This document shows, piece after piece, positions 41,497 through 63,650 of a DNA stretch of 64,000 nt. Source of the stretch: Deinococcales bacterium (GTDB lineage Bacteria; Deinococcota; Deinococci; Deinococcales; JAAFIG01); the NCBI GenBank assembly GCA_013298595.1, contig JAAFIG010000002.1:62001-126000 (forward strand). The letters are read 5' to 3'. Under the pieces are notes generated by a model. The model searched no databases. It saw only the letters and a program-made list of their open reading frames with translations, and was not told where the DNA came from. Each line of letters opens with the position of its first letter. Position 1 is the stretch's first letter. A program made the translations under genes and the position numbers.

Positions 41497-41967
41497 ATGA
41501 AACAAGCCTTAGTTTATCTTCAAGTCTTACAAAGTATCTTTGTTGTGGTTAATCGAATAAATACTCGAGCTAATGCAGTAATGAACGTAGTGCACGTGGC
41601 ATGGGAATTTTACTTAGCTATGCCAACACAAGATTTAGCGTTAGACGTGATTCATTTAGTGACGGTGCAAACAAGGAATTATCGACAGGTGACCTATGGT
41701 ATTTCAGTGCAAGAAATGAATCTAAATGTAGTAGAAAAACACTCAGTCGAATTTGCAAGGGATCTCGAAGAAGCGCTACTGACTTGTGTAACTCTTTTTG
41801 AATCTGACCAAGCTACTTCTGGTTTACGGCAAGTTAAAAGAAAGATCAAAATGAGTTTCGTGCTTAATGAACAATGCCAATGGACTTTTAAGCACGCTTC
41901 TCAGCAAAGTAAAAGTGATTTATTACAAATTCTTGAATTTAGCATCAACCCCAAGGTTATCAAATGA
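41497..41967 (+). CDS. Hypothetical protein
   Basis: 156 residues from the ATG at 41497, 7 bases after AAGGGG; the ATG at 41491 is too close to it. The N-terminal half is hydrophobic/helical (LVYLQVLQSIFVVVNRI, NVVHVAWEFYLA) without clear membrane segments; the C-terminal half is mixed. No family recognised. It lies 11 bases after the upstream gene and overlaps the next by 4. Confidence 0.65.
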   Translation: MKQALVYLQVLQSIFVVVNRINTRANAVMNVVHVAWEFYLAMPTQDLALDVIHLVTVQTRNYRQVTYGISVQEMNLNVVEKHSVEFARDLEEALLTCVTLFESDQATSGLRQVKRKIKMSFVLNEQCQWTFKHASQQSKSDLLQILEFSINPKVIK

Positions 41968-42296
41968 TGCGTGGTAAACCTGCTTACACATCGGAATTCA
42001 AACTCCGTATGGTTAAAGAAGTACTCGAGCAAGGTAAAAGACCCAGTGCCGTAGCTCGAGAACATAAGATTCTGGCTTCCACATTGTTTTCTTGGCGGGC
42101 TTTGTATGAACGGTTCGGTGAAGCTGCGTTTACAATGGTTGAGCAAAGCAGTTTACTTGAGGTGGAGAACATCAATTTGCAAAAGCAACTCGAGCGATTA
42201 AAATCTCAGGAGATCGTTTTTGAGCGGTTACTGGGCAAAATGACGCTCGAGAATCATCGGTTGCGAGAACAATTAAGTCTGCGCCTATCTGTGTAA
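41964..42296 (+). CDS. OrfA-like HTH protein (IS3-type transposase subunit) without OrfB
   Basis: 110 residues. RGKPAYTSEFKLRMVKEVLEQGKRPSAVAREHKILASTLFSWRALYERFG is the HTH of IS3-family OrfA / transposase-8 proteins, followed by a leucine-zipper-like coiled coil (VENINLQKQLERLKSQEIVFERLLGKMTLENHRLREQL). No integrase-core OrfB follows, and no IS3 terminal repeats were found. It is translationally coupled to the upstream gene, so it looks like a domesticated DNA-binding protein, not a live insertion sequence. Confidence 0.75.
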   Translation: MMRGKPAYTSEFKLRMVKEVLEQGKRPSAVAREHKILASTLFSWRALYERFGEAAFTMVEQSSLLEVENINLQKQLERLKSQEIVFERLLGKMTLENHRLREQLSLRLSV

Positions 42297-44234: not shown

Positions 44235-44882
44235 ATGATGAAAAAAGTTTTATTTGTCTGGGGCGGTTGGGAAGGTCATGAACCTAAAGCTTGCACGGAT
44301 TTATTTGCTTTGCATCTTGGGCAACTGGGGTACGATGTGATTGTTTCAGATTCCCTAGATTCGTATTTGGATGCAGATTTGATGGCTTCGCTTGATTTGA
44401 TCGTGCAGTGTTACACAATGAGCCAAATAACCCCTGAGCAAGAACATGGTTTGCTCGAGACGATCAAAGCAGGTACGGGTTTTGCGGGTTGGCATGGTGG
44501 TATGATTGATGCGTTTCGCAACAGTACCGAGTACCAATTTATGGTGGGGGCACAGTGGGTGGCGCATCCTGGAAATATTATTGATTACACAGTGCAGATT
44601 ACCAAACCACTTGACCCAATTGTGGCTGGTTTAGCAGATTTTGCGATGCACTCCGAGCAGTATTTAATGCACATAGACCCAAGTCTCGAGGTGTTAGCCG
44701 CGACAACTTTTACTGCCGAGCATTGTGCTTGGATTGATGGTTTGGTCATGCCTGTTGCTTGGAAAAAACGTTGGGGGCAAGGCAAAGTTTTTGCTTGTGC
44801 CTTGGGGCATGTGCGTCAGGATTTTGATGTGCCAGAAGCTTTGGCAATTACTTTACGTGGGATGCAATGGGCGACGCGCTAA
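44235..44882 (+). CDS. ThuA-like protein
   Basis: 215 residues. AAGGA lies 11 bases before the first of two adjacent ATGs. [13 protein letters not shown], then ELL-like [15 protein letters not shown] and QWVAHPG, and the C-terminal [21 protein letters not shown], are characteristic of the ThuA (trehalose utilisation) family, a glutamine-amidotransferase-like fold. The biochemical role of the family is poorly defined but it usually accompanies sugar-uptake loci. The 3' end overlaps that of the minus-strand fusion gene by 35 bases. Confidence 0.85.
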
Positions 44883-47800
44883 GTTTTTCCACTGGTTGAG
44901 TTGGTGGTTTAGCCTCGAGAAACGGGCTTTCGATGTGCCGATAAGAAATACTGGCAGCAGTGTAGGCTAAGCCCAGTGCTAAACTGGCTAACCATAGAAA
45001 CTCGAGTGGATTTTGAATGCCTGCGTAACGAAAATTTTCGTTGTGTAAAAAATTAATCAGCTCGAGAATTGGGAAGTGCCAGATGTAAAGCCCAAAGGAT
45101 AATTTAGCTGTGAAACGCAAGAATGTATTGTCAAATAATTTACCGAGCACTCGAGAAAATGGCAGAGACACCAGCATAATGGCAATACAAATCGGGAACC
45201 AAGGGTAACGGTATGGTTGGGCTTGGAAACTCCCAGCGTATTCGTCTGTGCCTTTACCAAACCACATAATGGCAATCATTCCGATCAATCCAAGTAGTGC
45301 TAGTGCGTCAAAGGCTGTGCTGGGTTGGCGTTCGCGGCGTTGTCTGTCCACAATAAAACCAGCTGCCAGCACACCAATAATGTAATGGGCGAACATACCA
45401 ATAGCGTTGTAATTAGGCATCCATTGTTTTGCCCCACCAACTAAGCCATGATCCCAACCACGATTAACATTGTCTGGAACTAATCCCTCGAGAATCAGTT
45501 GGTTTGCCATCAGCACCACTGCCAGCACACAAAGCCAGAATTGCAGGGCAAAACGGAATCCTTTGGCTGGGTATTTAGCAAACATTAACCACATACCAAG
45601 TGGCATCAACATATAACAAAAGACTTCAAATCCGATGCTCCAGAGTGGTCCGTTCATTTCGACAGGAAACAGCGTGACATAATGAAAAGCACTGGTAAAG
45701 GTTGCTCCAGAGAGCAGACGAATCCAGACTTTTTCGCCTTCACGCACAAAATACAATGCCAGTAAAAAACAAACAAATAAACTAGCATAAAACCCAGGTA
45801 CAATTCGCACAGCGCGCCGCCGCACATACTCGAGCATATTAGGTAATGGTTGAGCCGCTAAGTAAGCTTTCCAAAACGGAATCGAAAGTAACATACCAGA
45901 TAAAACAAAAAAAGCACTCACGCCAGCGCTGCCTTGCTCGAGAAAACCATCAATGGCTTGTACAGTGCTGTTGGCATTGCTTGCGTCAAAGCGTTGCCAG
46001 AGATGATGCAAAATCACCATTAAACATGCAATGGCACGGACACCATCGGCACCACTGAGGGTATTACTAAGCGGTTGGGTTGCCACTCGAGGGCGTTGTT
46101 GCCAGTCCTGCCAGATTTTCAGCCACCAAGCTGGTTGGGGTTGCCGATTCTCGAGATTGAGAGCTAAACGAATTTGTCCAGCGCAAATCAAAAAAGCCAA
46201 CAATGGAATCAGGCTGGCAAGTGCCATACCAGTGGCATAGCCATTGCTATTTTTGGCTTGCATATACGATAAAATTTGTGAAACCATTTGTTGCTCGGGG
46301 GCTTTTAATAAAGCCAGTGCCACCGAATTATTATTCCAAACGGTGACAAAAGTAATTAAACCCAGTGTCGCCAGAGCTGGTCTGGCAATGGGTAACATGA
46401 TTTGCCAATAAATACGTAAATCTGTAGCACCATCTATCCGAGCCGCCTCGAGTAAGGATTTTGGTACAGCACTTTGCACGTATTGCCGAATTAAAAACAC
46501 ACCAAAAGCACTGACCATACCGGGTACCCAAACAGCTCGGGCTTGGTCTATCCAACCAAGAATTGCCATGTTAATAGCGGTTGGAATCAGATTCATTAAA
46601 CTTGGGAAAAGCATGATGCTCAGCACCACACCATATAAAAAAGCTTTATGACGAAACTCGAGTAAGGCAAAGGCAAATCCTGCTAGACTCGAGATGATTA
46701 CAGCGCCAATGGTGGCGAGACTGGCAATGTAGGTGCTATTCCAGATGTTGCGCCAAAAAGTGGGTTGTTCCTCGAGCAGCAAAGTATAATTAGCACTAAG
46801 TGAATTACCAAAACCAAGCCATTGCCCCGAGTAACTATTGGTGGCATTGAGTAGTAAATTCAGCATTGGTAAAATAGCAATGGCAAGTCCAACAAATAAA
46901 ATAAATTTCATTATAATTCGCCACAGACTCGAGAAGCGCAGGGGAGAGGTATCGGCTTCGTTTAAAGCAGTGGTCTCGAGAGTGGTGAAATTACGTCCAA
47001 CAAAGAAGTAGAAAATACCAACCAGCACAGCAATACCAGCGAAGAAAACCCAAGTTTGAGCACTGGCAAGTCCAAAATCGGTGTCCCAAAAAGCGGTGCG
47101 GATGATATAGGTTGGTAAATCTATGGTGCGAATATCGGATATTGGACCAAACCAAGTACCAACTGAAGTTTGTGTACCACGCAAAAAACTCATGGTAAAT
47201 GCCACAAAAATCATTGGGCGCATCATCGGTAAGGCAACATTCCAAAATAAACGCCAAAAATTTGCGCCGTCAAGTTGAGCCGCTTCGTATAAACTGCGAG
47301 GCACAATATTTAAGACCATTAAGTACAACAACACATTCCAGCCTGTGACATTCCATAATTGCGTAAAAGCAGCGGTAGCTTCGGAATAAAACCCTGCAAT
47401 TGAAGGAATACTCGAGCCAATGATTGGTAATGAACTAAGAAAATCGTTGATTTGAATGAGAAAAGACCACAAAGCTGCAAAAATCGAAGCGAGCACCGCT
47501 GTAGCTGCTAAACTCGATGTCATAAAAGGCACAAAGAGAATCGCTGCGATGCTGCCTTGTACGCGTTTAAAAGCAGTATGTAAACAAAAAGCTAAAGGTA
47601 TGGCGATCAGATGTTGACCAATGGCGGTAAATAAAGCTAAGCGCAATGAACGAAATAAACCTTGCCAGAAAATTGGGTCTTTGAGTGTGTAATCAAATGC
47701 CCATAAACCGTCAAAACGCATTTTGTTGATACCACTGGCAGGGTTCCATTCCATAAAAGAAACAAGCAGTGATAACCCAAGTGGGGCAAAAGCAAAGAGC

Positions 47801-47910
47801 ACCAATAAAGTAAAGAACGGAGCAATAAACCAATAAGCACTACTTGAACGCATTGGTGATGATTTTGATTGAACTCGAGAAGATTGTTTTGGTAATGGCT
47901 GGGTGGTCAT
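44848..47910 (-). CDS. Fusion: MalF-type permease, MalG-type permease, acyltransferase-3
   Basis: 1020 residues from the ATG at 47910 (AGGAG 7 bases upstream). Residues 20-310 are a MalF/UgpA-like permease with the ATPase-docking loop [20 protein letters not shown]. Residues 325-595 are a MalG/UgpE-like permease with [20 protein letters not shown]. Residues 625-1000 are an acyltransferase-3 (OafA-like) domain: [19 protein letters not shown] with its conserved His, [28 protein letters not shown] and [13 protein letters not shown]. The frame has no interruption. Ordinarily these are three polypeptides. Last gene of the xylan locus; it implies transport coupled to acylation, or simple gene fusion for stoichiometry. 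Confidence 0.9.
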
Positions 47911-47974
47911 AAGTACTCCTCGAGTTGAACACAAAACTTTTTAAACAGATACTTGGTAACTATCTGGTGCGATT

Positions 47975-49471
47975 TTATACGCCTGTTTGATTTGATGAAT
48001 TTGAAAAGCCTTTTACTGCTGCAAAACCATGCTTGAAATTGTCATAAGCTGCTTCTAAGGTACTATCTCGAGCAATTTCGACTAAAGCTGATTGTGGGGC
48101 TGTGGCTGCTAAGGCTGTGGCAACATTGGCATACAAACCAGCGCCAACCAATCCAAGAATGGCTGCCCCTCGAGCTGGACCTTCTTCGAGGGCTGGTTTT
48201 TCGAGCGGAACGCCTAAGGCATTACCAATAATTGCTTGCCAGAGGCTCGAGCGAGTACCACCGCCAACAGTTAAGAGTTTATTGGCTTTTGCAATCGGGT
48301 TCATCACTTCGAGGGTGTCGCGTAAACTAAAGGCAACCCCTTCAAGAATGGCTCGAGTCATATGCCCGCGAGTATGGGCAAGGCTTAACCCTAACCACGA
48401 GCCACGTAGATTTGGGTCGAGGTGTGGGCTGCGTTCACCTGCTAAGTATGGCATCCAGACCAAACCTTCCGAGCCACTCGCTACATTGCCAGCCTCGAGC
48501 ATTAATTCGTCAAAAGGGACATCTTTGGCAAGGGTATCGCGGAACCATTGCAAACTGCCAGCTGCACTAAGGGTGCAACCTAAAAAGAAATAGCCACCAT
48601 CGGCATGGCAAAATAAGTGCACACGTCCGTTGGGTTCAGCAATCGGTTGCTCGAGTGGTACAACAATCACACCACTTGTACCCAGTGAAACACTACCGAC
48701 CCCTGGTCTGGCACTGGAAACACCCAACCCAATTTGTGCACCAGCATTATCACCCGCTCCTGCCACCACAGGAATACCTGCGGGCAAGCCTGTCTCGAGC
48801 GCCCAAGTGTCCGATAAGCCACCAACAACACTATGTGAGGGTTGGACAGTTGGGAAAAGGCTCGAGTCGAGTTTAAGGGCACTCAGGATGTCTGTATCCC
48901 AAGTTCGTGAAGCCAAGTTCAAAGCACCAACACCACTGGCATCAGAAGGGTCGGCTGCAATCACACCCGTTAGAGCAAAATTGAGATAATCCTTAGGCAG
49001 TAAAACATGGCGAACTCGAGCGTACACATCGGGTTCGGCTTGGCGTAACCAAACCAACTTAGGCAATTGAAAACCGGTCACTGCTGGATTCCCTGTGCGT
49101 TGAATCAACTCGAGACGCGGAATGGCAGCCTCAATTTCAGTGCAAGCTGCGCCAGTTCGTTGATCGTTCCAAAGCGGGGCAGGGCGCAAAACATTCATCT
49201 TTGCATCCAAAAAAACTGCGCCGTGCATCTGTCCAGCCACACCAATAGCCACAACCTCAAACTTTCCCTCGAGTTGCGGTATTAACGTTTTAAGCGCAGA
49301 TTTTGTACCCTCAAGCCAATCAGTAGGATTTTGCTCAGTCCAACCCGGATGTGGCGTAAACAACGGATAAGACGCACTCGCTTCAGCCACACTCGAGCCA
49401 TCCTTGGTCACTGCCATGATTTTTACACCACTTGTACCAAGGTCAATACCAATTGAAACAGGTTTAGACAT
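47975..49471 (-). CDS. xylB: Xylulokinase
   Basis: 498 residues from the ATG at 49471, with AAAGG upstream. FGGY-kinase signatures: [17 protein letters not shown] (phosphate-1), [27 protein letters not shown], and in the second half [22 protein letters not shown] and [21 protein letters not shown]. It phosphorylates D-xylulose made by XylA, feeding the pentose phosphate pathway. 75 bases after xylA on the same strand. Confidence 0.95.
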
Positions 49472-49546
49472 AATGCCTTTCATGCAATTCTGCGTGGGCG
49501 AGGCATGCCTTGTCCCTACGGGTAGAATCAATAGGATGATAAATCT

Positions 49547-50707
49547 TTAACGAGTACCTAGCAAAACTTCCATCGTCAATTGATCTAAACGTTCCAAACC
49601 AGGTCCACGAGCACCTAGGGCAGCCCGATCAAAGGTGTGGGCTTTGAGGTTAGCAGCATTGTCGCGGCTAAACTTAGCCGTTAAACCAGAAACAATTGGG
49701 TCTTTGAAATGGTAATGCTCGAGTAAAGCTTTGATTTCGCTATCAGCATGAAATTGTTTGACTTTTTCTGCCAAAATTAAGTAGGTTCGCATGCAGCCTT
49801 TAGCAAAATCCCAGACTCCAGCTTCATCTTCGGTACGTAATGCGTGAGCATCGAAGTGTTTCATGCCTGTGTAACCTGTATCCTCGAGCAATTTGACCAG
49901 CAAAAAGGCTTGTTTAATGTTTTCTGCACCAAAGCGTAAATCCTGATCAAAACGACCCATTTTCTGATCGTTTAAGTCAATGTGGAACAGTTTTTTAGCA
50001 TCAATAGCTTGGGCAACTGCGTGCACAAAATTAAGACCTGCCATGGTTTCGTGGGCAACTTCTGGGTTTAAACCAAATAAATCTGGTTTATCAAGGGTGT
50101 AAATAAAGGCAAGAGCAGCACCAACCACTGGAAAGTAAATATCGCCACGAGGTTCGTTTGGTTTTGGCTCGAGTGCAAATTTATACCCATACTTTTGATC
50201 TTCGCTGTACTCAGCTAAGAAATTCATGGCTTCACGCATGTACTCGAGGGCATTGAGTGTATTGCTACCTGCGTCTACTTCTGCGCCTTCACGACCACCC
50301 CAGAAAACATAGGTTTTTGCACCAAGTTCGGCACCTAAATCCATAGCGTTCATGGCTTTTTGAATCGCATAACCACGAATCCGAGCATTCGCATTGGTAA
50401 ATGCACCATCTTTGAAGGCAGGGTCGCCGAACAGATTGGTGGTTGCCATTGGCACTTTCATCCCTGTTTCGGATAGGGCTTTTTTGAAATCACGCAGAAT
50501 TTGATCGCGTTCGCCTGAGGTTGCGTCAATTGGAATTAAATCGTTATCGTGCAAATTCACACCATATGCACCAAGCTTGGCGAGTTTATGAACAATATAC
50601 GGTGCGCTTAGTGGTTGACGAGTTGGATTACCAAATGGGTCGCGTCCGATATTGCCAACAGTCCAGAGTCCAAAAGTAAAGTGATGTTCAGGTTTTGCTT
50701 CGTACAT
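49547..50707 (-). CDS. xylA: Xylose isomerase, short (class I) type
   Basis: 386 residues, the length of the actinobacterial/Thermus class. [17 protein letters not shown] opens the TIM barrel; [11 protein letters not shown] carries the catalytic His; [36 protein letters not shown] (metal-binding Glu) and [22 protein letters not shown] follow. It converts D-xylose to D-xylulose with divalent metal. GGAGGC lies just before the ATG. It sits between the beta-xylosidase and xylB genes. Confidence 0.97.
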
Positions 50708-50774: not shown

Positions 50775-52400
50775 TTACGAAATTGGGGTGTACACAAACA
50801 AATCAAAATCGGCAGAAGCCTTAGTACCTGCTAAATCCTGAGCGCACAAGCCAATGAACGCACCTGTGAACGATAAACCATTGCAGTAATCATCGGAGAG
50901 TTTATAGGTTTCAAAATCGGCACCAATACGTTGCCATGTTGTGCCATCACTCGAGTATTCAAAATGAAAGTGGTGTTTTGCAAAAACAACTTTTAAGTGA
51001 ACACTCTGCCAACCTTCAATACCGATTTCTTGCTCGAGTGGTTCGCTGTAATTACCTGCATCGAGTACTAAGATACTCAGGGTTTTACCAAGTTTTTCAT
51101 CTCTCGAGACCCGCAAGTAAACCCAGTGTTTACTATCGTAAAAAGCCACCATACCAGCCATTTGTTGGAAGTGCTGCGGTTCAAACTCGAGTTTGGTACT
51201 GGCAGTGGCATGGAAATCTTGTAAACGCCGAGCAATCAGGCTTTGGTCGTGGTTGCTTGTTAGGCTTTCGCGTCCGTATAAGCGCAAAAACCCTGGGCGA
51301 TCAGTTAACGATAACCAACTGGAATCCACAGGGATACGTAAACTCTGCCAATCTAAACGCAGTTCGGGTTGGTCAAAATGATCTGTGGTTGGCTCGGTGC
51401 TCCACGGATGCGCCTCGAGTTTTGGTGCAGGAGCAAGGCGATGAGGTGTGTTACCGCCACCTTGCACATAGAGCCAATCATCATCATGCCACTCCATAGC
51501 TTGTAAACTGGTTTCCCGACCAAGTGGGCAATAACCGCGTTCAAGTCCTGCCTCGAGTGGTCTGCCACACAAATGCGCTAAGTACCATTCATCATTTTGG
51601 GTTTGCACAAGGCTGGCATGACCAGCTTTACGAATCTCGAGATGCGGATGCCCCCACGAACTTAACAACGGATTATTGGGATGAATTTCGTACTCACCAT
51701 CAAGGGTTCTCGAGCGTGCCAGCGAAGCTGCGTGCTCGTAGCTAGTGCCACCTTCAGCGGTTAAAAGGTAGTACCAACCATTGCGTTTATAAATATGTGG
51801 ACCTTCGACTAAACCAAGGGGGGTACCTAAGAAAATATTTTTAGTCTCACCCACCAGTTTTTGCTGTTTAGCATCGTATTCTTGTAGTAAAATTCCACTA
51901 AACTGATTTTTGCCAACTCGATGATCCCAAAGCATATTGACCAACCACTTACGACCATCGTCATCGTGAAATAAACTCGGATCAAAACCACTCGAGTTTA
52001 AATAAATTGGTTCTGACCATTCACCTTCGATATCGGTGGCTGTGACCAAATAATTATGCGAGTCCTTAAATGGACCCGAATTCCAAGTTCTCACATTGGT
52101 GTAAATCAAATGAAATTTTTCGCCATCATGGCTTAAACATGGTGCCCAAATCCCACAAGAATTAGGGTTACCTCGCATATCAAGTTGGCTCGAGCGGCGC
52201 AAAGGCGATTTTACGGTGCGCCAATGAATTAAATCGCGGCTATGATGAATCCGTACACCAGGAAACCACTCAAAAGTACTTGTAGCCAAGTAGTAATCGT
52301 TACCAACCCGCAGAATACTGGGGTCTGGATGAAAGCCTGTCAGCACTGGGTTGCTGATATGAGTCATGACAGAAGATGGTGGGTTAAGCAGTTGTGTCAT
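50775..52400 (-). CDS. xynB: GH43 beta-xylosidase
   Basis: 541 residues from the ATG at 52400 (GGAG 6 bases upstream); no signal peptide, so intracellular. The five-bladed propeller shows GFHPDPSILRVGNDYYLATSTFEWFPG (catalytic base Asp), SSGFDPSLFHDDDGRKWLVN (pKa-modulating Asp) and GLVEGPHIYKRNGWYYLLTAEGG (acid Glu). A C-terminal beta-sandwich (from about 330) is usual for this subfamily. It releases xylose (possibly arabinose) from imported oligosaccharides, directly before xylA/xylB. Confidence 0.93.
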   Translation of the reverse strand: MTQLLNPPSSVMTHISNPVLTGFHPDPSILRVGNDYYLATSTFEWFPGVRIHHSRDLIHWRTVKSPLRRSSQLDMRGNPNSCGIWAPCLSHDGEKFHLIYTNVRTWNSGPFKDSHNYLVTATDIEGEWSEPIYLNSSGFDPSLFHDDDGRKWLVNMLWDHRVGKNQFSGILLQEYDAKQQKLVGETKNIFLGTPLGLVEGPHIYKRNGWYYLLTAEGGTSYEHAASLARSRTLDGEYEIHPNNPLLSSWGHPHLEIRKAGHASLVQTQNDEWYLAHLCGRPLEAGLERGYCPLGRETSLQAMEWHDDDWLYVQGGGNTPHRLAPAPKLEAHPWSTEPTTDHFDQPELRLDWQSLRIPVDSSWLSLTDRPGFLRLYGRESLTSNHDQSLIARRLQDFHATASTKLEFEPQHFQQMAGMVAFYDSKHWVYLRVSRDEKLGKTLSILVLDAGNYSEPLEQEIGIEGWQSVHLKVVFAKHHFHFEYSSDGTTWQRIGADFETYKLSDDYCNGLSFTGAFIGLCAQDLAGTKASADFDLFVYTPIS

Positions 52401-52437
52401 GGGTTGCTCCGACGGGTTGGTATTCGCATGTTTTCTC

Positions 52438-53508
52438 CTATTGCTGTATTGTTCGTTTACCACGATTCATCATTAATTTTAATGAGCTTCGCATACGTTC
52501 CAAAGCGTCACTTAAATCAGCAATTTCATCATTTGAAGTAGCGGTTATAACTTGTTCAAGATCACCATCAGACATGGTGTTCGCTTGTTGGGTTAAACGA
52601 GTAATAGGTTGTACGATTCTCGAGATCAAACCAAATGCCAGCAGCGCTGTGATCACAATAGCAATTAGTACCGCCAGAATTGTTGGGATTAAAGTTCGTA
52701 ATAAGTCGGCTTGGGTTCGGTCTTGTTTTAAGCCCACAAATATTCTACCGCTACCAACTCCGTTACCAACCGAAACAATACCAACGGTGTAATCAACACC
52801 TTGGATGTTAAGTATGGCTGTTTGACTATTGCTTGAATCCCCAGCTCGCACATTAACCGAAAGTTTGCGTAGACGTTGATTAAGGTCTTGTTGTAATGCA
52901 GTTGTATCATCTTCTTGTAAACGACTTTCAAAAGCGATAATGCCACCTTGTGAAACACCAGCAAAAGCCACAGCGGGGATTTGTCTACCAAGTCCACGAA
53001 TGACACGTTTGACCTCTTTTAAGTCATCTGGTTCATCCAGAGCAAAATTAATAACTTCAGTAATCGCAATACCACCTGCAATAGATGCTGATAAAGCACG
53101 ATCACGTAATTGGGCATCGAAAATTCCAGGTAGTGTCCAGAGCAAATACCCAGCTAAAGCCAAACCAGCAATCAGCAGTGGTGCTAAAGCACTTAACAAA
53201 ATGCGTTGCCCCAAGCCTCGTCGAGCTTTACGTGGAGCAGCAATTTGACTACTACCAGCTTCAGCAACAGCTGCCATTGTTTCTGGGGCGCTGACAGAAA
53301 CACGCACACCCAAATCGCTCAAGGTTTTAGCCACTTGTTGGGCTTGGAATTCGTTTGGTGCTCGAGCAATGACAGAACCAGTTTGACGTTCGAGTAAAGC
53401 TTCAAGTTGTTGTACCGAAATACCCAGTTGTTTGGCAGCATTCAGGGCAATGCGATTACGCAGTGTCGGGTCTTGGATTGGTTCTTGTAAGTAAATGGTA
53501 AAAATCAT
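52438..53508 (-). CDS. HAMP-domain membrane protein
   Basis: 356 residues. Residues 1-95 are cytoplasmic with an odd helical part (RIALNAAKQLGISVQQLEALL). A membrane segment (ILLSALAPLLIAGLALAGYLLWTL) at about 105, an extracytoplasmic sensor of about 150 residues, a second membrane segment (ILAVLIAIVITALLAFGLI) and a HAMP domain (RIVQPITRLTQQANTMSDGDLEQVI, then DEIADLSDALERMRSSL) follow. It ends right after HAMP, without kinase or methyl-accepting domain. The start overlaps the DUF4388 gene by ATGA. Probably a signalling partner of that protein. Confidence 0.83.
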   Translation of the reverse strand: MIFTIYLQEPIQDPTLRNRIALNAAKQLGISVQQLEALLERQTGSVIARAPNEFQAQQVAKTLSDLGVRVSVSAPETMAAVAEAGSSQIAAPRKARRGLGQRILLSALAPLLIAGLALAGYLLWTLPGIFDAQLRDRALSASIAGGIAITEVINFALDEPDDLKEVKRVIRGLGRQIPAVAFAGVSQGGIIAFESRLQEDDTTALQQDLNQRLRKLSVNVRAGDSSNSQTAILNIQGVDYTVGIVSVGNGVGSGRIFVGLKQDRTQADLLRTLIPTILAVLIAIVITALLAFGLISRIVQPITRLTQQANTMSDGDLEQVITATSNDEIADLSDALERMRSSLKLMMNRGKRTIQQ

Positions 53509-54146
53509 GATTTTGCCCCACTTAACCCAGCTTTTTTGAGTGCAGTTTCTAGTCTTGCATGGGTGCTTGGATCATTGACAATCTGACCAAGTGTCTCGAG
53601 TAATGTAGGTAAGTGTTGTTGTGGTAATGCCACTAATTCCCAACCAAGTTCGGCGGCGGCATCCTCGAGTACCAGACCACCAGCAGGTCCGAGGGCTTCA
53701 ATGGCGACTCGGGTTAAGGTAGTTAACATATTAGCAGTGATTGGTTTTTCAGTGGCACTGTTGTTGCCTTCACCTGTGGTGACTGTAATACTATTTTCGG
53801 TTTTTGCTATTTGTGTTTCACCACTGACATGGGTTGGGTGTTTACGGGTATGTCCAACAGCAATACGGCTAAAACTATCAACAATGGTACGGGTTTGGCT
53901 TTCTAAACCTGATTCAAATTGGTAATCGGCAAATTCGACATCTAAACAAGTAAATAAGGCTTCTGAACCGCTCGAGGTATCGGTTTGGGCATGAATAACC
54001 CAACCTGTGCGAATAAAAATTTCGGCTCGAGTTTCTGGCATTTGTAAAGATAAACGCCCAGTCACATTAGATGTAATAAATTCACGTAATAAATCGACTA
54101 AACGACCACGAAATTGTCCTTGATATGCCAAAACAGCGGACATCAT
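53505..54146 (-). CDS. DUF4388-domain protein
   Basis: 213 residues. The first 90 match the DUF4388 pattern: GQFRGRLVDLLREFITSNVTGRLSLQ, EIFIRTGWVIHAQT, GSEALFTCLDVEFADYQFE. A Ser/Thr-rich linker (about 105-140) leads to a helical C-terminus. These proteins are implicated in small-GTPase and motility signalling in other bacteria. It begins one base inside the GH1 stop (TAATG) and overlaps the HAMP gene, so both signalling genes are embedded in the glycosidase operon. Confidence 0.83.
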   Translation of the reverse strand: MMSAVLAYQGQFRGRLVDLLREFITSNVTGRLSLQMPETRAEIFIRTGWVIHAQTDTSSGSEALFTCLDVEFADYQFESGLESQTRTIVDSFSRIAVGHTRKHPTHVSGETQIAKTENSITVTTGEGNNSATEKPITANMLTTLTRVAIEALGPAGGLVLEDAAAELGWELVALPQQHLPTLLETLGQIVNDPSTHARLETALKKAGLSGAKS

Positions 54147-55540
54147 TACACCTCACCCGAAAGTAAGAAATCTTGAAACCATCTAGCAGATTGTTTAGGA
54201 GTACGTTTTTGTGTGACAAAATCAACGTAGGTAATACCAAAACGTTTTTCGTAACCTTCTGCCCATTCAAAATTATCAAGGAAACTCCAAGCAAAATACC
54301 CATCGAGTTTCACACCATTCTGAACTGCCTCGAGACTGGCGGCTAAGTGCTGTTGAAAATACAAAGTGCGTTCAGTGTCGTGGATACTGCCATCTGCTTC
54401 GAGATGATCTTGGTACGTTGCACCATTCTCGGAAATAAAAATACTTTTTGGTTTGTAATCGTATTGTAAACGCTCGAGGAAATCGGTTAAGCCTTGTGGG
54501 TAGACTTCCCAGTTAAAAAAAGTTCGTGGCACATTTGGTAGATCAACGTATTCATAGCCCAGTAAAGTATGTGGCGCAGGTATAGCTTCAACCACAGCAT
54601 CTTTGACTACGGTTCTTGTATAGTAATTGATGCCAATAAAATCTAGTGGTGCTGCAATAATTTCAAGATCACCCACTTCGACTTTTGGTGCATAAGCCCC
54701 ATACGATGCCAATGTATCAGTGGGGTAGCCTTTACCAAAAACAGGATCAAAGTACCAACGATTCTGGAAACCATCAGCCCGATGCGCCGCTGCAATATCT
54801 GCACTCGAGTTGGAGGCTGGGTAAACAGGGGCTGGATTGAGAACAATGCCAGCTTTGGCATCAGCTACATTGTTACGAATGATTGGCATTGTAAGCCCAT
54901 GAGCCAATAACAAATGATGGGTGGCTTGTAAAGAAGCAGCAAAATCGCTTTGACCAGGCGCATGAACACCAACACCGTAACCAAGAAATGCCGAACACCA
55001 CGGCTCGTTAAGGGTTGTCCAATTTTTCAGACGATCACCAAGAACCTGAGTGACTGCATTGGTATATTCAGCAAAAGCAAAAGCTGTATCACGGTTTAAC
55101 CAGCCACCTGTATCCTCGAGAATCTGAGGTAAATCCCAGTGATACAGTGTTACGTATGGTTCAATACCACGCTCGAGTAAAGCATCCACAATTCGGTCAT
55201 AAAATGCCATACCAGCAGCGTTGATTTCACCACGTCCATTTGGCATGACTCGAGACCACGAAATCGAAAAGCGGTAAGCGTTAAAACCCATTTGCTGCAT
55301 CAGATCAAAATCGTTTTCGTAACGGTGATAATGATCGCAGGCAATATCGCCAGTGTCACCATTTTGCACTTTGCCAGGAGTTTTTGAAAAGGTATCCCAA
55401 ATGCTAGGGCTGCGTCCATCTGTCGCAAAAGCCCCTTCGATTTGGTAGGAAGCGGTAGCAGTTCCCCAAACAAATTTTTTTCCAAAAAGATGTCGTTGAA
55501 ATGCCGTCGTGAGTGACGGTTTATCTAAGAGTTGCGTCAT
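54146..55540 (-). CDS. bglA: GH1 beta-glucosidase
   Basis: 464 residues. FVWGTATASYQIEGAFATDGRSPSIWDTF is the GH1 N-terminal signature; WTTLNEPW holds the acid/base Glu and SIFISENGATYQD the nucleophile Glu; GYFAWSFLDNFEWAEGYEKRFG is the C-terminal signature. No signal peptide. It hydrolyses short beta-glucosides, and could finish laminari- or cello-oligosaccharides produced by the secreted GH81 enzyme encoded just upstream (start overlaps its stop by ATGA). Confidence 0.96.
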   Translation of the reverse strand: MTQLLDKPSLTTAFQRHLFGKKFVWGTATASYQIEGAFATDGRSPSIWDTFSKTPGKVQNGDTGDIACDHYHRYENDFDLMQQMGFNAYRFSISWSRVMPNGRGEINAAGMAFYDRIVDALLERGIEPYVTLYHWDLPQILEDTGGWLNRDTAFAFAEYTNAVTQVLGDRLKNWTTLNEPWCSAFLGYGVGVHAPGQSDFAASLQATHHLLLAHGLTMPIIRNNVADAKAGIVLNPAPVYPASNSSADIAAAHRADGFQNRWYFDPVFGKGYPTDTLASYGAYAPKVEVGDLEIIAAPLDFIGINYYTRTVVKDAVVEAIPAPHTLLGYEYVDLPNVPRTFFNWEVYPQGLTDFLERLQYDYKPKSIFISENGATYQDHLEADGSIHDTERTLYFQQHLAASLEAVQNGVKLDGYFAWSFLDNFEWAEGYEKRFGITYVDFVTQKRTPKQSARWFQDFLLSGEV

Positions 55541-58500
55541 GGTTGAACCTCTTTGGTTTGAGTGGCATACTGACCTGCTGGGATAACCAGTAACGTGCCA
55601 TCAGAAAATGTAGCAGTTTTTATGCGATTACTTTGGTTAAAACCAGCATAGGTACGCTGATTTTGTTTTTGCAGGACAGCAAATTGGGCTACATCTGCGC
55701 TCATGTTCTGTACTGGCGTACCAAATTGTTCAAGACTGCTGAACCAATGAAAAATTTGGGGTTGAGAATTACCAAATTCCACAGGTAATTCTGGGTTGTA
55801 TTCTGCTTGTCCTCGAGTTGGATTTAACAAAGCTAAGTACATTGCGGCAAGGTCGTTCCAGTATCGTTGCTGCTTAAAATTTGCAAAGTTTTCGGCAATA
55901 AAATTTGGTTTTCGAGCTAAGTATAAACTTGCACCAGTTAACGGTAAGGCGTTAATCAGATGAATTGCACCTTTTGACCCTGTCCACCAAGTCCCGTATT
56001 GCCCACCGTCTCCCCAAAGAATACCAATGGCTGAGGGTGTAAAAGCACTTGGGAAATTTTGACCAGCTGCAAACCAGTACTGCCAAACTGCATTGGTCTC
56101 GAGTGTATACATACCTACAGCACGTTCAAGTAGCAAATCGTTACCACTGACTTCGGCATAACGAATTAACCCAGCCCAAGCGTTAATTGCTTCGCTTGAG
56201 CTTTCCTGATTAGCACCACGCATTTGTCCTCGGCTATCACCACTTGCCCATGAATGCCCAGCGTAAGCATCAAAGTTACGGGTTTTGGTAAAACTTGGGT
56301 CGTTGCTTGGTGCAGCTATTTCTCGAGCAATCACGTCGAGCAAAGTGCGATGCTTCTCGAGCCAAATAGGATCTTGGGTTGCAACACTGGCAGCAGCTTG
56401 CAAAAAGTAGCCAAAATTAAAATGATGATCGTTGAGTTGATAATCTGCACCATGTGAAGCAGGCACTGGAATCAGTGTGCCCCAACGTCCATCCCATAGC
56501 AGTGCGTGAGGCGGTGCAGGGTCAAACCATTCATCAAGTCGTTCTTTGAGAGCAGTTAATAATGTTTGCACAGCGCTGGTTTCGCCAAGTTGATTAGCAA
56601 TTTCTAAGGCTTGGCTTAAACGTCCAAAATTTCGGGCATCGGTGTAGGCATCTGTGATGCGAACACTTTCAGGGGCAAGTGGAAAAAAGCGTTTGCGTTC
56701 AACAAAGGCAAGTAAAGCTGTTCGTACACTTTCTCGAGCAGTACTATTTGTGGTCAGAGGTAAATTAGGCAAAATACCAGTGTAAGCAGTACGGGTTGTA
56801 AACGAATTGGTTGTAGCAAGTTTAATCTGTCCTCGAGCGGAAATATAACTCCAAGAAGTCAAAGGCATTTGCGAATTTTTCCATTGGTGAGGATATAAAC
56901 CCATGATGGTTGGCTGACTTGCAACAGTTTCGAGGCGATGCGTGGTTTCGACCATTGCCGAACTTCGCTGCCACTGCCATGAAACGTTGGAGTCCACAGG
57001 TTTTTCTTTGTGCAAATATAAAAACGCTGTGGCTTGGAGTCGTAAAGTAGGATTTTGTTGTGCTTCTTCAGGCAGTGCAGCCACAACCAAAGTGCTACCC
57101 GTCACTGCTCTCGAGACTCCTATACCCTGCCATTGCGCTCCAAGCGAAGTAAAAAGCACATAATCACGCCCTGCAACACGAAGACCAAGAGTGTCACAAG
57201 GTACTTCTTGGCAAGAACGTGCCCAAATTTCTGGGTTTTGAGTAAAGGAAATACTTAGTGGCGCACCTGAAGTAGTAAACCAAGCAAATGGTACACCATG
57301 CCCAAATGTTGAAGTTAATTTCGACTGTCCTGCTTGACTAACAACGCTGACAAGAAAATCACTGGCAGCATCCACTCGAGTATCTAAGAATTGTTTACCC
57401 TGTAACCCAACAGTGATATCAGGTGCAAATGGTGTGGAAAAACCGTCTTCGTTAACCTCGAGTTTAGGGTAATTCAGTGCCATACCTTTGGCTGTGGCTT
57501 GTAATGCCAAAGGATGAGCCATGAGCGCACCCGAAAACTTTTCCCAGAGCACAGAACCCCACCATGTATTGGTTGCATATGGCGCAGCTAAATTAGCGGT
57601 TTTAAATTCTGGTTCAGGTGGTGCACGAAAATTGCCTTCACGCCAGACAGTGGCAAGATTGACCAAAGGTTTTGTGGCAGTGACAGCTTTGCGGTACACC
57701 AAACGCCAGAAACTCCGTGCAGGTAAGGCGAGATTGGCTTTAGTGGCTAAAGCAATGTCAGGTGCTTCTTTTTGTACGGTGGCATTGGTAAAACCTTTGA
57801 CCCCAATTAATTCCCAGCCTGCAATGGTTGACTCGAGTGTTTGCGTAGTAGTGCTGGTATTGGACGCAATGATTGTCAAACGATTCTCGAGTTGCGCTGC
57901 ATGTAGCCACAATTGAGGATTATCTGATCGAACTTCAAAGGCTTGTCCAACAAAATGGGTTAAATGCCGAAACGCATAATAAGTGGCCGTCGGTACACCT
58001 GAAATATCGAGTGTGCCATGGGGTCCAATCCCTTGCAGTGCAAAGTAGGTATTCAAAGTTGCACCAGCTTGTGCCATTCGCAATGTGGTTTCGGCTGCCC
58101 ATAAACCCGCCAATTGATCGCCGATGTGTCTGGCACTTTCGGTGCGATATGATAACCCATACTCGGTTAAACCAAACTCAATGGGTTTAGCAAATGCCAA
58201 AGGATTTTTAACAGGGTCTTTCCATAGTGTTATGTATTGTTCGCGTTCAATATCCACTCGAGCAATACTGGCAATAGCAGCTTCGTCGGTGGCTCTGCCA
58301 TCGGTTGGATAAACATGCCAAGTTAAAACATCTATTTGGTCACCACATAAACGCACAAAATTCTCGAGAAACACCGCATCACCTGTGGTACTCGGACCAG
58401 CAAATTTGGCGTTAGGTTGTACAGCCAAAATCGCTGCCCGATGCGCCTTAAAAGTTTGACAGTATTTCTCAGCTGTCCAACTTTTGTCACCTCGAGTCAC

Positions 58501-58944: not shown

Positions 58945-59012
58945 CAACAACCTCACTTGATAAGAAGACTATGTATGAATTTCGGGTGGAACTCCAACGA
59001 AACCAATTGAAA

Positions 59013-59861
59013 TTAGCTTTTGACCGAACCAGCGGTTAAACCAGAAATTAGTTGTTTGGAAGTGAAAATAAAAAGAATTAATAAGGGTAATACCGTAATA
59101 GCCGTACCCATCATAAAACCACCGTAATCAATATTGGTAACAGTAGTACCACCAGAAATTGTACGAATCAGGGTTTGCAAAGTACGGGTTTCATTATTAC
59201 GCAGAATCAGGCTTTGTAAAACATACTCGTTCCAAACACCAATAAAAGAAATCAAACCAAGTGTACCAAGCGCAGGTCGGATAAGCGGTAAAATAACGCG
59301 CCAAAAAATACCAAATTCAGTACAACCATCCACTCGAGCAGCGTCCATCAATTCTCGAGGAATAGCACTTTGAATGTACTGACGGGTTAAGAAAATACCA
59401 AAAGCACTTGCCATACCAGGAAACCAAAGGGCTTTTGGTTGATCTATCCAACCAATTAAATTCATGATTAAGAAAAACGGAATTAAATTAAGAGCAGCAG
59501 GAATGGCTTGGGTGGCAACAACGATATTGAAAATCCAGTTTTTACCTTTGAAATCATACATGGCAAAACCGTAACCAGCCAATGTTGAAAAGAATAAGGT
59601 TGTGATGGTTGCAACACTGGCAAGATAAAAACTATTCCAAAAAACACGCCAGAATAACCCTTTGGTCATTTCCATCAGTGCATTGTAATTACTGATAATT
59701 TGCTCAAAACTGCCAGGCAGCATTGGTGGTGGAAAACTAAAGATAACTTCTCGGCTTTGGGTTGCAAAAATAAGCATGAAATACAGCGGAATAATCATTA
59801 ATACACCACCAATAAAAATTAGTGTGTAAATGGCTAAGTTAGGCAAAGAGAATTTGGTCAT
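59013..59861 (-). CDS. ABC sugar transporter permease, MalG type
   Basis: 282 residues with six membrane segments. The docking loop is ELMDAARVDGCTEFGIFWRVILPLIRPALGTLGL. Ends GLTAGSVKS, a frequent ending in this family. It pairs with the MalF-type permease encoded 11 bases upstream. No ATPase gene lies in the locus, so a shared MsmX/MalK-type ATPase elsewhere is implied. It is closely similar to the second permease domain of the fusion at 44848. Confidence 0.95.
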   Translation of the reverse strand: MTKFSLPNLAIYTLIFIGGVLMIIPLYFMLIFATQSREVIFSFPPPMLPGSFEQIISNYNALMEMTKGLFWRVFWNSFYLASVATITTLFFSTLAGYGFAMYDFKGKNWIFNIVVATQAIPAALNLIPFFLIMNLIGWIDQPKALWFPGMASAFGIFLTRQYIQSAIPRELMDAARVDGCTEFGIFWRVILPLIRPALGTLGLISFIGVWNEYVLQSLILRNNETRTLQTLIRTISGGTTVTNIDYGGFMMGTAITVLPLLILFIFTSKQLISGLTAGSVKS

Positions 59862-59872: not shown

Positions 59873-60868
59873 TTAATCGTTACGAATCTTGTTAAATATC
59901 CAGTTGTTAACTGCCGATAACGAGAAAATAATGACAAATAACACCCATGTCTGTGCAGCTGCATCGCCAACCAAGAGATTGTTAAAAGCATTGTCGAGCA
60001 AGTACATCACCGAAGTACGACCAGCATTTTGGTTACCACCACCTCGGTCAACCAAAAGGAATGCCTCGAGGAATAATTGCATACCGCCTAGAATTGAGAA
60101 AGTAACAGCCGTAAACATGGTTGGGCGTAATAAGGGCAATGTGATGTAACGGAAACGCTCAAATTTACTTGCACCATCCACTTCGGCAGCTTCGTATAAA
60201 TCTTGTGGGATGGCTTGTAAACCTGCTAGATACAAAACAGTGTTCCAACCTGTGTAACGCCAGATCACCAGAATTGAAATCGAAATAGGAATCATGTCTT
60301 TGTTGCCTAACCATTTAATTGGTTCGTCAGTAATAATGCTGTTTAATAAAGGTATTTTATTAAGAACTTCCAGAATAAACCAATTCAGGAACCCATTACG
60401 TTCAGAGTACAAAACACCAAAAACAGCCGCAATAGCTGCAACCGAAGTCACAAAAGGCGCAAAATACACGGCTGTCACAAAGCCTTGCATCCGCTTCATA
60501 CCAGTATGAATCATAAAAGCCAATGGAATAGCAATTAAATGTTGCGGTAAACCAGAAATAACTGCAATATAGGCGGTTTGGCGAATGGCTTTCCAAAAAT
60601 CGGTGTCGCCTTTAGAAGGATCAAAAAGACCATCAAGCAAAAATTTATAATTACTTAAACCAACAAATTTCATACCACCCAAACCAGAAATAGCATCCCA
60701 GCTTGTCATAGAAACATAGATTGAAAAAATCATTGGAAAAAGACCAAAAATAAGAAATAAAATAAAAAATGGGCTAATAAAAACATATGGCGCTAAAATT
60801 CGTTGCCAACGCGTATACGTTTGAGTCCAATGTTGTGGTACTTCGGATTTAATCGCAGGACTGATCAC
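59873..60868 (-). CDS. ABC sugar transporter permease, MalF type
   Basis: 331 residues from the GTG at 60868, which has AAGGGG 6 bases upstream; a longer TTG frame is unsupported. Six membrane segments and the loop YEAAEVDGASKFERFRYITLPLLRPTMFTAV. It forms the channel with the MalG-type partner. Two hairpins separate it from the binding-protein gene and would reduce its expression relative to that gene. Confidence 0.94.
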   Translation of the reverse strand: MISPAIKSEVPQHWTQTYTRWQRILAPYVFISPFFILFLIFGLFPMIFSIYVSMTSWDAISGLGGMKFVGLSNYKFLLDGLFDPSKGDTDFWKAIRQTAYIAVISGLPQHLIAIPLAFMIHTGMKRMQGFVTAVYFAPFVTSVAAIAAVFGVLYSERNGFLNWFILEVLNKIPLLNSIITDEPIKWLGNKDMIPISISILVIWRYTGWNTVLYLAGLQAIPQDLYEAAEVDGASKFERFRYITLPLLRPTMFTAVTFSILGGMQLFLEAFLLVDRGGGNQNAGRTSVMYLLDNAFNNLLVGDAAAQTWVLFVIIFSLSAVNNWIFNKIRND

Positions 60869-60900
60869 GTGAAACCCCTTAAATGAACACTGGTGTTTAC

Positions 60901-60978
60901 CCAAGGCTCGAGATTAGCGCAAACTCGAGCCTTGGTACAGCGGAGGAGGAGGCGTTAAGAGTTAAGTACTCTTAACGC
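60901..60978 (-). promoter_or_regulatory. Two hairpins between binding protein and permease genes
   Basis: GCGTTAAGAGT (60952-60962) pairs with 60968-60978, and CCAAGGCTCGAG (60901-60912) with 60924-60935. Both stems are perfect. In this position they would act as partial terminators or 3'-end protectors, keeping binding protein in excess. Confidence 0.65.
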
Positions 60979-60992: not shown

Positions 60993-62252
60993 TTAACGAC
61001 GAGCGCGTTTTTCGATTTCAGCGCGGGCTTCTGTAAGAGCAGCTTTGATATCTTTGCCTTCGTCAAGCACTGCGGTGAGTTGGGTGGTGACAATGGTTTC
61101 GGCTACGCTGTCGTACTTGTTGACATCAAGTGGCTTGATACGGTTCGCAGCAGCTTTCCAGAGCAAGCGTGCTTTTTGACCACCAAGGAATTCAACGGGT
61201 TCGTTGAAGCTCGAGTCTGCCCATGCTGATTTGAGTGCTGGGAAGGCACCATTGCCACGGAAAGAAGCGATTTGTTGAGCACGGTCTGTGGTCAAGTACT
61301 TGATGACATTCCAAGCTTCAGGCTTGTTTTTGCTGGCATTAGGAATGGTGTAGAAGCTGCCGCCCCAAGGAGCATAGGCACCATCTGGCAAGTCTTGAAC
61401 GCGCCACAAGCCTTTGGTATCTGGTGCCATCCAGTTTTGGAAGTGACCTTGTAACCATGCACCGCTGAATTGGGTTGCAACTGTGCCACCTTTGAAGCCT
61501 TCGTACCATTCATTGCTCCACTCGCCAATTTTTGCATCGAGTTTTGCATCGCGGATTTGCTTAGCAATGGTGAATGCTTTGACCCAACGTGCGCTGTCTG
61601 GTCCAACAATAACTTTGTTATCCTTGGAGAAGAAAATACCTTCGCCAGAAGGAATATTTGAGCGCCAGATCAAACCTGCTGCACTAGCAGCACTGTTAAT
61701 CAAGAAAACTTTTTTATCTTTGGCTTGGATCTTTTTACCAGCAGCAATGTAGCCTTCCCATGTGGTGAGTTCAGTAGATGAAATGCCAGCTTTGTCGAGG
61801 ATATCTTTGCGGTAGAAAGTTGTACCAGGTCCAATGTCGGCTGGCATACCAATAAAGCGTCCGTCGCTGCTGGTGGCTTGTGCCACGGTGTAATCAACAA
61901 ACAAACGTTGGAAGCTCTTACCGTTATAAGGTGCTTTGTTCAAATCTTCGAGACCGCCGCCTTCAGCAAATTTACCAACAAAGCCAATTTCTACAGCTTC
62001 GATATCGTGTAAACCTTGACCAGTTGCCAGTGCTGTGGTCAATGCTTGGTGGTGATCGCCGTATTGCAAAGCAGTCAATTCGATGTCGTAGTTAGGGTAT
62101 TTCTTTTTTAAACCTGGCAATGCAATTTTCACAGCTTCATCGAGGCTTGGGAAAGCAGCAATGGTAATTTTTTTCATACCTGTTTGGGCGCTGACTAAAC
62201 CAGCAACAGCTGCTGTGGCAAGTCCAAAAGCAATAATGGTACGGAGTTTCAT
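60993..62252 (-). CDS. ABC sugar-binding protein
   Basis: 419 residues. Signal TIIAFGLATAAVAGLVSAQ with type I cleavage, no lipobox. Family-1 solute-binding features: ITIAAFPSLDEAVKIALPGLKKKYPNYDIELTAL, YGDHHQALTTALATGQG, DIEAVEIGFVGKFAEGGGL, IGPGTTFYRKDILDKAG, PWGGSFYTIPNASKNKPEAWNVIKYL. It would deliver xylo- or gluco-oligosaccharides to the permeases downstream. CTGAGGAGGAAAACC precedes the ATG, and a LacI-type operator lies 39 bases upstream. Confidence 0.94.
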   Translation of the reverse strand: MKLRTIIAFGLATAAVAGLVSAQTGMKKITIAAFPSLDEAVKIALPGLKKKYPNYDIELTALQYGDHHQALTTALATGQGLHDIEAVEIGFVGKFAEGGGLEDLNKAPYNGKSFQRLFVDYTVAQATSSDGRFIGMPADIGPGTTFYRKDILDKAGISSTELTTWEGYIAAGKKIQAKDKKVFLINSAASAAGLIWRSNIPSGEGIFFSKDNKVIVGPDSARWVKAFTIAKQIRDAKLDAKIGEWSNEWYEGFKGGTVATQFSGAWLQGHFQNWMAPDTKGLWRVQDLPDGAYAPWGGSFYTIPNASKNKPEAWNVIKYLTTDRAQQIASFRGNGAFPALKSAWADSSFNEPVEFLGGQKARLLWKAAANRIKPLDVNKYDSVAETIVTTQLTAVLDEGKDIKAALTEARAEIEKRARR

Positions 62253-62290
62253 GGTTTTCCTCCTCAGGAATTGAATGATGGCTTAGTGCT

Positions 62291-62304
62291 TGAAACCGCT
62301 TGCA
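62291..62304. promoter_or_regulatory. LacI-type operator before the binding-protein gene
   Basis: TGAAACCGCTTGCA fits the LacI/CRE consensus with the central CG. It lies between the regulator stop and the binding-protein start. Confidence 0.6.
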
Positions 62305-62342
62305 AAATCAGCTTGAAATCCTCCTTTTACTTGTCCAACAAA

Positions 62343-63350
62343 TTACGAATGTCTTAATCGAGTGGTTGACTCACGAACCACTAAATGAGGGGTAAAAATC
62401 AAAGATGGTAGTTTTCGGTGCTCGAGTAGCGACAATACCATTTGAGCTGCGGCATTGCCCATTTCCTGTCCAGGTTGACGAACAGTTGTCAGTGGCGGAG
62501 TTGAATAACTCGAGCCGAATAAATCATCAAAACCAATAATGCTGATGTCTTCTGGAACTCGAATGCCTCGGCGGTATAGGGCTAAACGCGCACCTGATGC
62601 CATTTGGTCGTTGGCTGAAAAAACAGCGGTAATACTGGTATCTCGAGTTAGTAATTGTTCCATAGCAAGTAAGCCACTGTGTTCTTGGAAATTGCCTGAT
62701 ACAACTAAATTAGGGTCAAAAGGGATATCGTTAGCAGCTAAGACTTGTTGGTAACCGTGTAAGCGTCCTGTCGAGTCACGATGTGACGCTGGTCCTGCGA
62801 TATGGGCAATTCGATGGTGTCCTAAGTCAATCAGGTGTTGCACTCCTGCGGCAGCACCTTGTATTTGGTCAATATGAATACATTGATTTTCTAAGCCTTG
62901 AATGAAACGTCCAACGGCTACCAGAGGAATTTGTTGAGATAACTGCAATAAATATTGATCGTCTAAGTTGCCACCTAAAATAATTAGGCTATCTACGCGT
63001 CTAGCGGTCAAAATTTCAATTGCCTCGAGTTCTTTATCCTGTCGCCAATGCCCAGAAATAAACATTGGATGATACACACTATCGGCAAACCCTTGTTCGA
63101 TACCTGCTAGTGTTTCGGCATAAAACGGACTCGAGATGGCTTGGGTGACAACACCAACGGTCATTGAACGTCCTTTGGCAAGGGCTTGCGCCATCACATT
63201 TGGACGATAGCCTAGCGTTGCAATGGCTGTTTCGACTTGCTTACGTTTCTCAGGGCTGACGACTGCCGTGCCATTCAGAATCCTCGAGACAGTACTCGGG
63301 GAGACTTGGGCGATTTTGGCAACATCATTGAGTGTTCGTGTGCGAGACAC
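62343..63350 (-). CDS. LacI-family transcriptional regulator
   Basis: 335 residues from the GTG at 63350, preceded by CGGAGGAAAAGCCA. The HTH and hinge read LNDVAKIAQVSPSTVSRILNGTAVVSPEKRKQVETAI then LGYRPNVMAQAL. The periplasmic-binding-protein-like core contains SMTVGVVTQAISSPFYAETLAG, DSLIILGG, GHHRIAHIAG and TAVFSANDQMASGARLALYRRG. It most likely represses the glycan locus until a sugar ligand binds. Its own upstream region has an operator at 63401, suggesting autoregulation. Confidence 0.93.
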   Translation of the reverse strand: MSRTRTLNDVAKIAQVSPSTVSRILNGTAVVSPEKRKQVETAIATLGYRPNVMAQALAKGRSMTVGVVTQAISSPFYAETLAGIEQGFADSVYHPMFISGHWRQDKELEAIEILTARRVDSLIILGGNLDDQYLLQLSQQIPLVAVGRFIQGLENQCIHIDQIQGAAAGVQHLIDLGHHRIAHIAGPASHRDSTGRLHGYQQVLAANDIPFDPNLVVSGNFQEHSGLLAMEQLLTRDTSITAVFSANDQMASGARLALYRRGIRVPEDISIIGFDDLFGSSYSTPPLTTVRQPGQEMGNAAAQMVLSLLEHRKLPSLIFTPHLVVRESTTRLRHS

Positions 63351-63400
63351 TGGCTTTTCCTCCGTTTGGATGGTTTGATTGTGCGAAGTGTAACAGTATC

Positions 63401-63414
63401 TGAAAGCGCTGTCA
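63401..63414. promoter_or_regulatory. LacI-type operator, autoregulatory
   Basis: TGAAAGCGCTGTCA, one mismatch from a perfect palindrome, 51 bases before the regulator GTG. Confidence 0.65.
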
Positions 63415-63650
63415 AGAGGTTTGGTCACAAGAACAAAAATCAAGAGCAAATCAGTTTGGTGGTATCACAAAGCGCAGCTCTACTGAAGATAAATGTCTAA
63501 AAAAGTAGCTTAGAAAGTCTATTTCTCGAGTATATAACCTAAAATATATAGTGTTTTAGGCAGAGATATTTTTGTGAGCCAGATTTCTTTTTTGGATAAT
63601 ATCGATGGGTAACTGACAAGTGCTTTTGACTAAGTACGTACTTCAATTTA

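Follow-up and report, generated by a model that had tools for sequence, protein, structure and literature searches.

The permeases closest to the protein described here are those of CUT1 sugar importers (MalF/MalG, LpqY-SugABC and AlgM1/AlgM2). ABC importers are generally taken to hand over their sugar without altering it. Two BPD_transp_1 domains in a single chain are known from the double-permease ABC proteins ThiP and PhnU2. The second family concerned is the acyltransferase-3 (AT3/TmAT) superfamily (OafA, OafB, OatA; PF01757), whose members, according to two reviews, take the acyl group of cytosolic acyl-CoA across the membrane to an extracytosolic acceptor (PMC9833829, PMC12423673). The AT3 fusions named in the available text of three reviews are C-terminal SGNH and alanine-racemase fusions, as well as NRF fusions in animals; no transporter-AT3 fusion is named in that text (PMC9558356, PMC9833829, PMC12423673). 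In open-access full-text literature the two Pfam domains were not found as one architecture, and the two papers in which both occur list them as separate genes.

We analyzed a stretch of 64,000 nt from a Deinococcales bacterium (the window) in which one uninterrupted minus-strand frame of 1020 codons encodes two BPD_transp_1 stretches followed by a complete Acyl_transf_3 (AT3) domain (Table 1). The gene brings known domains into a combination for which we found no description in the open-access literature. The plus strand of the same interval is full of stops. A TTG start would lengthen the product to 1028 aa (44848..47934, minus strand); the ATG start has a ribosome-binding site, GAGGAG, 6 nt upstream. 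A sequence-only reading of this DNA had described an unbroken 1020-aa frame with MalF-like, MalG-like and AT3 parts. The frame and the domains were confirmed by Pfam matches and by intact motifs, and the strand, which that reading had left unstated, is the minus strand; its view that the architecture is unusual was also supported. A ThuA-family gene (44235-44882, plus strand) converges on the fusion gene and overlaps its 3′ end by 35 bases.

A scan of 84,980 species' genomes for peptide patterns of the protein returned one close relative, a 1018-aa protein from a Deinococcales MAG, 71% identical end to end and without a stop. This relative (L021:8001-11057) is the full-length orthologue in a second, independently assembled species of the genus, and the whole-genome search yielded in G001 what is apparently the same orthologue. 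Comparison of the window gene with the sister-species orthologue gave dN values of 0.17 for the MalF half, 0.19 for the MalG half and 0.22 (0.215) for the AT3 domain, while dS was saturated or close to 1.8 throughout (1.87 in AT3). With dN about one-tenth of dS, all three domains are under purifying selection, as judged from this comparison. One could suppose that the long frame results from misassembly, or from a stop lost in one genome, and that the genes are truly separate. The window does come from a draft of 68 contigs, and we found no support for such a supposition; the same uninterrupted architecture recurs in independent genomes, and selection acts on all three domains. We consider it vanishingly improbable, and an artefact or frameshift was rejected on the same grounds. 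Specifically, a frameshift or stop between residues 600 and 630, which the sequence-only reading had named as the observation that would overturn it, is ruled out by the uninterrupted 1018-aa orthologue, whose linker is of nearly equal length. That a single polypeptide contains both transmembrane halves of a CUT1 importer and, after them, an entire AT3 domain is as good as certain.

Table 1. Features of the fusion gene and of the surrounding xylan/xylose cluster (coordinates in the window; residues of the fusion protein)
Feature	Coordinates	Strand	Basis or remark
MalF-MalG-AT3 fusion gene	44848..47910	-	ATG at 47910, TAA stop, 1020 aa; full-length orthologue L021:8001-11057
MalF-like permease half, about residues 20-315	46966..47853	-	BPD_transp_1; SugA 7cad_A, AlgM1; tree
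EAA loop of MalF half, residues 209-232	47215..47286	-	Kept in 6/6 fused copies
MalG-like permease half, about residues 326-588	46147..46935	-	BPD_transp_1; AlgM2, SugB; tree
EAA loop of MalG half, residues 488-511	46378..46449	-	Alignment of fused copies
Linker from MalG to AT3, about residues 589-617	46060..46146	-	Poorly conserved, in frame in every copy
Acyltransferase-3 domain, complete, about residues 618-1000	44911..46059	-	Pfam PF01757
R-X10-H motif, AT3 TMH1 (R625-H636); DxxR = D622-R625	46003..46038	-	Motif definitions from PMC9833829, PMC12423673
RxxR motif, AT3 TMH3 (R699-R702)	45805..45816	-	Motif inspection
xylB, xylulokinase	47975..49531	-	TIGR01312 above cut-off; 64 nt upstream of fusion
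xylA, xylose isomerase	49547..50707	-	TIGR02631 above cut-off
GH43 glycosidase with GH43_C2 domain, beta-xylosidase type	50775..52463	-	Domain search
Separate malG-like permease, xylan cluster	59013..59861	-	Profile matches, tree
Separate malF-like permease, xylan cluster	59873..60904	-	Profile matches, tree
Sugar solute-binding protein	60993..62252	-	Only one found in cluster; 87% identical in sister species
LacI-family regulator	62343..63449	-	Profile matches
LacI-type operator-like palindrome before solute-binding protein gene	62290..62305	+	2 mismatches to TTGAAAGCGCTTTCAA
LacI-type operator-like palindrome over lacI promoter (-35 TTGACA)	63400..63415	+	Palindrome search

The permease part of the protein resembles CUT1 importers in having both halves and both EAA loops, in its nearest solved relatives and in the presence of a MalK/UgpC-type ATPase in the genome. 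The two BPD_transp_1 stretches were matched by Pfam (1.5e-21), and each half corresponds to a six-helix permease domain that has its own EAA loop (the helix count, made by hydropathy, is approximate). Both loops are present in six of six fused copies. The best solved relatives are SugA and AlgM1 for the MalF half and AlgM2, SugB and MalG for the MalG half. The ATPase, of the UgpC/MalK type, is encoded elsewhere (C34; 485 bits, above the curated UgpC cut-off), so that a candidate MalK-type partner for the fusion protein appears to be available. Unlike the CUT1 permeases, the fusion protein holds both halves in one chain, carries AT3 at its C terminus and forms a second pair beside separate MalF and MalG proteins, to which it is 35-40% identical, with a long stem branch in the tree. 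It shares with ThiP and PhnU2 the two BPD_transp_1 domains in one chain, but those proteins have different substrates and the fusion has an acyltransferase added; the PhnU2 model TIGR03262 scored 38.9 bits against it, far below the cut-off of 593.

The AT3 part matches Acyl_transf_3 at essentially full length (1.8e-31; 109.9 bits versus a cut-off of 31; model positions 3-324 of 326). The motifs DxxR, R-X10-H, RxxR, FFVLSG and WSIGFE are all intact in the window protein, as in the AT3/TmAT superfamily (where the last has the form WSxxFE). We found no Pfam match in the fusion protein to the SGNH domain that follows the 11th helix in proteins of the OafA/OatA type; the chain ends about 20-30 residues past the AT3 domain. 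In the bacterial AT3 fusions reported in one review the partner, SGNH or alanine racemase, sits at the AT3 C terminus (PMC9558356), whereas here a permease pair sits at the N terminus. An AlphaFold model of the whole protein, with an input of two sequences only, had a pLDDT of 32.5, too low for use in assessing the 10-helix TmAT fold. The window copy is likely to be an active acyltransferase. One fused copy, L037:7760-10999 (minus strand), has a low-complexity insertion of roughly 45 residues, rich in T, R and K, inside the AT3 domain.

The AT3 motifs are kept in all other fused copies whose sequence reaches them, with one exception. In genome G003, a paralogue (L036:9828-12956, plus strand) lacks the catalytic His (SS in place of HH), the second Arg of RxxR (now Q) and the Glu of WSIGFE, so that neither R-X10-H nor RxxR is recognizable; both EAA loops remain, as does the AT3 domain over its full length. 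A degenerate AT3 site next to intact permease motifs shows that not all members of the family depend on catalysis. The permease motifs have thus outlived the AT3 catalytic residues at least once, which leaves room for a structural role. The AT3 domain could be mainly structural or regulatory, an extra transmembrane module that stabilizes or gates the importer, with catalysis secondary or lost; VanT offers a precedent, as the function of its AT3 domain beside the partner is presented as unsettled in two reviews (PMC9558356, PMC12423673). For the family as a whole we regard such a role as improbable, given the motifs kept in the window protein and in the other copies that reach them and the low dN of the window's AT3 domain.

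Permeases of this kind, from type I importers, have a cytosolic C-terminal end, and AT3 domains start in the cytosol; the fusion would therefore need no extra helix between the two. The linker contains several K/R residues and is predicted to be cytosolic, a placement that would follow from the topology. Its length varies among fused copies and it drifts fast (31% identity over 32 ungapped codons versus the sister species). A frame that stays open through such a linker in independent genomes is what one expects under selection for one chain. In one copy (L025:1405-3852, plus strand) the MalG-AT3 linker has grown to about 100 residues with low-complexity charged repeats (KEIVEAKEIVGAKEIVE...).

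To map the distribution of the fusion we searched 390 genomes, all 111 Deinococcota available plus about 280 from elsewhere. Full fusions were found only in the window's order, in its two families f1 and f2; outside these the best permease matches are pairs with intervening stops or separate genes. Genome G003, from the same family as the window, has two full-length paralogues of 1079 and 1042 aa, 46% and 38% identical (alignment A1), and the fused copies in G016 and G012 run open to contig ends and are partial. In the trees the fused MalF halves make one clade (100/100) and so do the fused MalG halves (100/100); both clades sit in a larger group with the separate MalF/MalG of the xylan cluster and their f3 and f5 relatives. 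Since both permease halves of the fused copies are monophyletic, a single origin is indicated, and one fusion event followed by inheritance and duplication is the simplest account of these sequences. The AT3-domain tree, with nine rows, is too sparse for dating the fusion from the AT3 side. Carriage as mobile-element cargo was rejected: no plasmid or phage record covers at least 80% of the fusion protein in one place. A short ORF nearby (41964-42296, plus strand) has, by eye, the look of a transposase helix-turn-helix protein (orfA-like) and is possibly a mobile-element remnant.

The fusion is the last gene of a same-strand run with gaps of at most 90 nt and several overlapping genes, in the order lacI, solute-binding protein, malF, malG, the gene of a 1139-aa protein, GH1, DUF4388, HAMP, GH43, xylA, xylB and fusion. 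The spacing suggests that the run is one transcript, a xylan/xylose operon. The 1139-aa protein (55537-58956, minus strand) has a C-terminal GH81 match and a weak GH39 match, and is conserved beside the same permeases in the sister species (72% identical over the part compared). Two mutually overlapping genes between GH1 and GH43 (52438-54146, minus strand), one for a DUF4388 protein and one for a membrane protein with a HAMP domain, possibly serve signalling.

In the sister species the fusion gene stands directly before lacI-SBP-malF-malG, and an operator-like palindrome, TTGAAAGGGCTTTCAG, lies 15 nt upstream of its ATG. The same TTGAAAGGGCTTTCAG palindrome precedes lacI and the binding-protein gene there; three matches occurred in 0 of 200 shuffles. 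No LacI operator was found adjoining the fusion gene in the window itself or near the G003 fused copies. The operator in the sister species and the gene run in the window thus connect the fusion with the xylan regulon although the gene is placed differently in the two. Of the G003 copies, one shares an overlap with a GH2 beta-mannosidase gene that adjoins a LacI/SBP/permease cluster, and the other has genes of fatty-acid-synthesis type and a P450 gene around it; another fused copy is not in an evident sugar operon. Near L036:9828-12956 there are genes for FabH-like, ketoacyl-synthase and P450 proteins, which may belong to a cluster for fatty-acid or secondary metabolism. The link to xylan use proposed in the sequence-only reading is borne out by the same-strand xylan/xylose run, the LacI-type operator at the orthologue and the beta-mannosidase gene overlapping another copy. 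The further ideas in that reading, that the enzyme might acylate or deacylate the sugar during transport or acylate a surface glycan in response to flux, stay conjectural here.

Taken together, the best explanation is that a CUT1 importer core, made as one chain, carries an attached AT3 domain that acylates a carbohydrate at the outer face of the importer; we put its probability as a whole at roughly 0.4. The MalF and MalG halves would pair within one chain and, by way of the two EAA loops, would each engage one subunit of a shared ATPase of the MalK/UgpC type whose gene lies elsewhere. Sugar would be delivered by a solute-binding protein, probably that of the cluster, and the linker would hold the AT3 domain beside the channel. 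There the domain would draw on cytosolic acyl-CoA, probably acetyl-CoA, and transfer the acyl group via its pore to a carbohydrate outside the membrane. Since the enzyme is joined to the importer and shares its regulation with hemicellulose use, a hemicellulose-derived oligosaccharide handled at this importer would be the most plausible acceptor, an assignment that we make tentatively, and the two activities would presumably work together. A stronger form, in which the built-in acyltransferase adds or removes acyl groups on the importer's own hemicellulose-oligosaccharide substrate at the channel mouth in a step coupled to ATP-driven uptake, strikes us as rather doubtful. Against the best explanation stands the complete separate MalF/MalG pair that the xylan cluster already owns; the fused permease is thus a second, divergent pair, which may carry another substrate or depend on a different binding protein. 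So do the paralogue with the degenerate AT3 site, the copy near fatty-acid-synthesis-type genes and the copy outside an evident sugar operon. The cluster's one binding-protein gene adjoins the separate pair.

The relatives of the AT3 domain point elsewhere. The closest unfused proteins found, L034:9851-11074 and L035:9324-10547 (407 aa each, from two f5 genomes of the same order), share about 50% identity with the AT3 domain of the fusion, and differ from it in standing alone and unlinked to ABC sugar-transporter genes; the next closest is encoded on a Rhizobium plasmid and adjoins a sugar transferase gene. These locations suggest surface-glycan acylation. The AT3 domain may accordingly acylate a glycan of the cell surface or periplasm that has no relation to the sugar being imported, with the fusion providing equal expression and co-localization, so that the envelope is remodelled during hemicellulose feeding. 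According to one review, the characterized bacterial AT3 carbohydrate acyltransferases act on cell-surface glycans (PMC9558356), and the fusion is the only PF01757 protein in the window's genome, which leaves no other member for such a job. A role of this kind leaves unexplained both the persistence of a permease-enzyme fusion that goes back to a single ancestral event and the placement of several fused genes in or beside hemicellulose gene clusters; we hold it to be somewhat unlikely, just below the oligosaccharide as acceptor.

Xylan and mannan are naturally acetylated, and fused copies adjoin xylan and beta-mannosidase genes, so that one may also imagine the AT3 domain running towards the cytosol: at the mouth of the importer it would strip acetyl groups from acetylated oligosaccharides of xylan or mannan and pass them to CoA, thereby coupling de-acetylation to uptake. 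In searches of the genome with two acetyl-xylan-esterase profiles, SASA (CE6-type) had no match and AXE1 only weak matches to generic hydrolases, which would fit such a function. However, transfer from ester to thioester is uphill, and we know of no AT3 protein that works in the cytosol-ward direction; we judge this reversal very improbable.

If the importer core does acylate a carbohydrate at its outer face, an importer that brings along an enzyme for acyl transfer through the membrane would couple uptake and chemistry in a new way; alternatively, the fusion would couple feeding on plant cell walls to modification of the envelope. Structural and catalytic roles can be told apart more easily with the help of the paralogue whose AT3 site has decayed. 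It is difficult to identify the acceptor of an AT3 protein by sequence; in this case both the fusion partner and the regulon suggest a candidate, so that the question can be put to the test.
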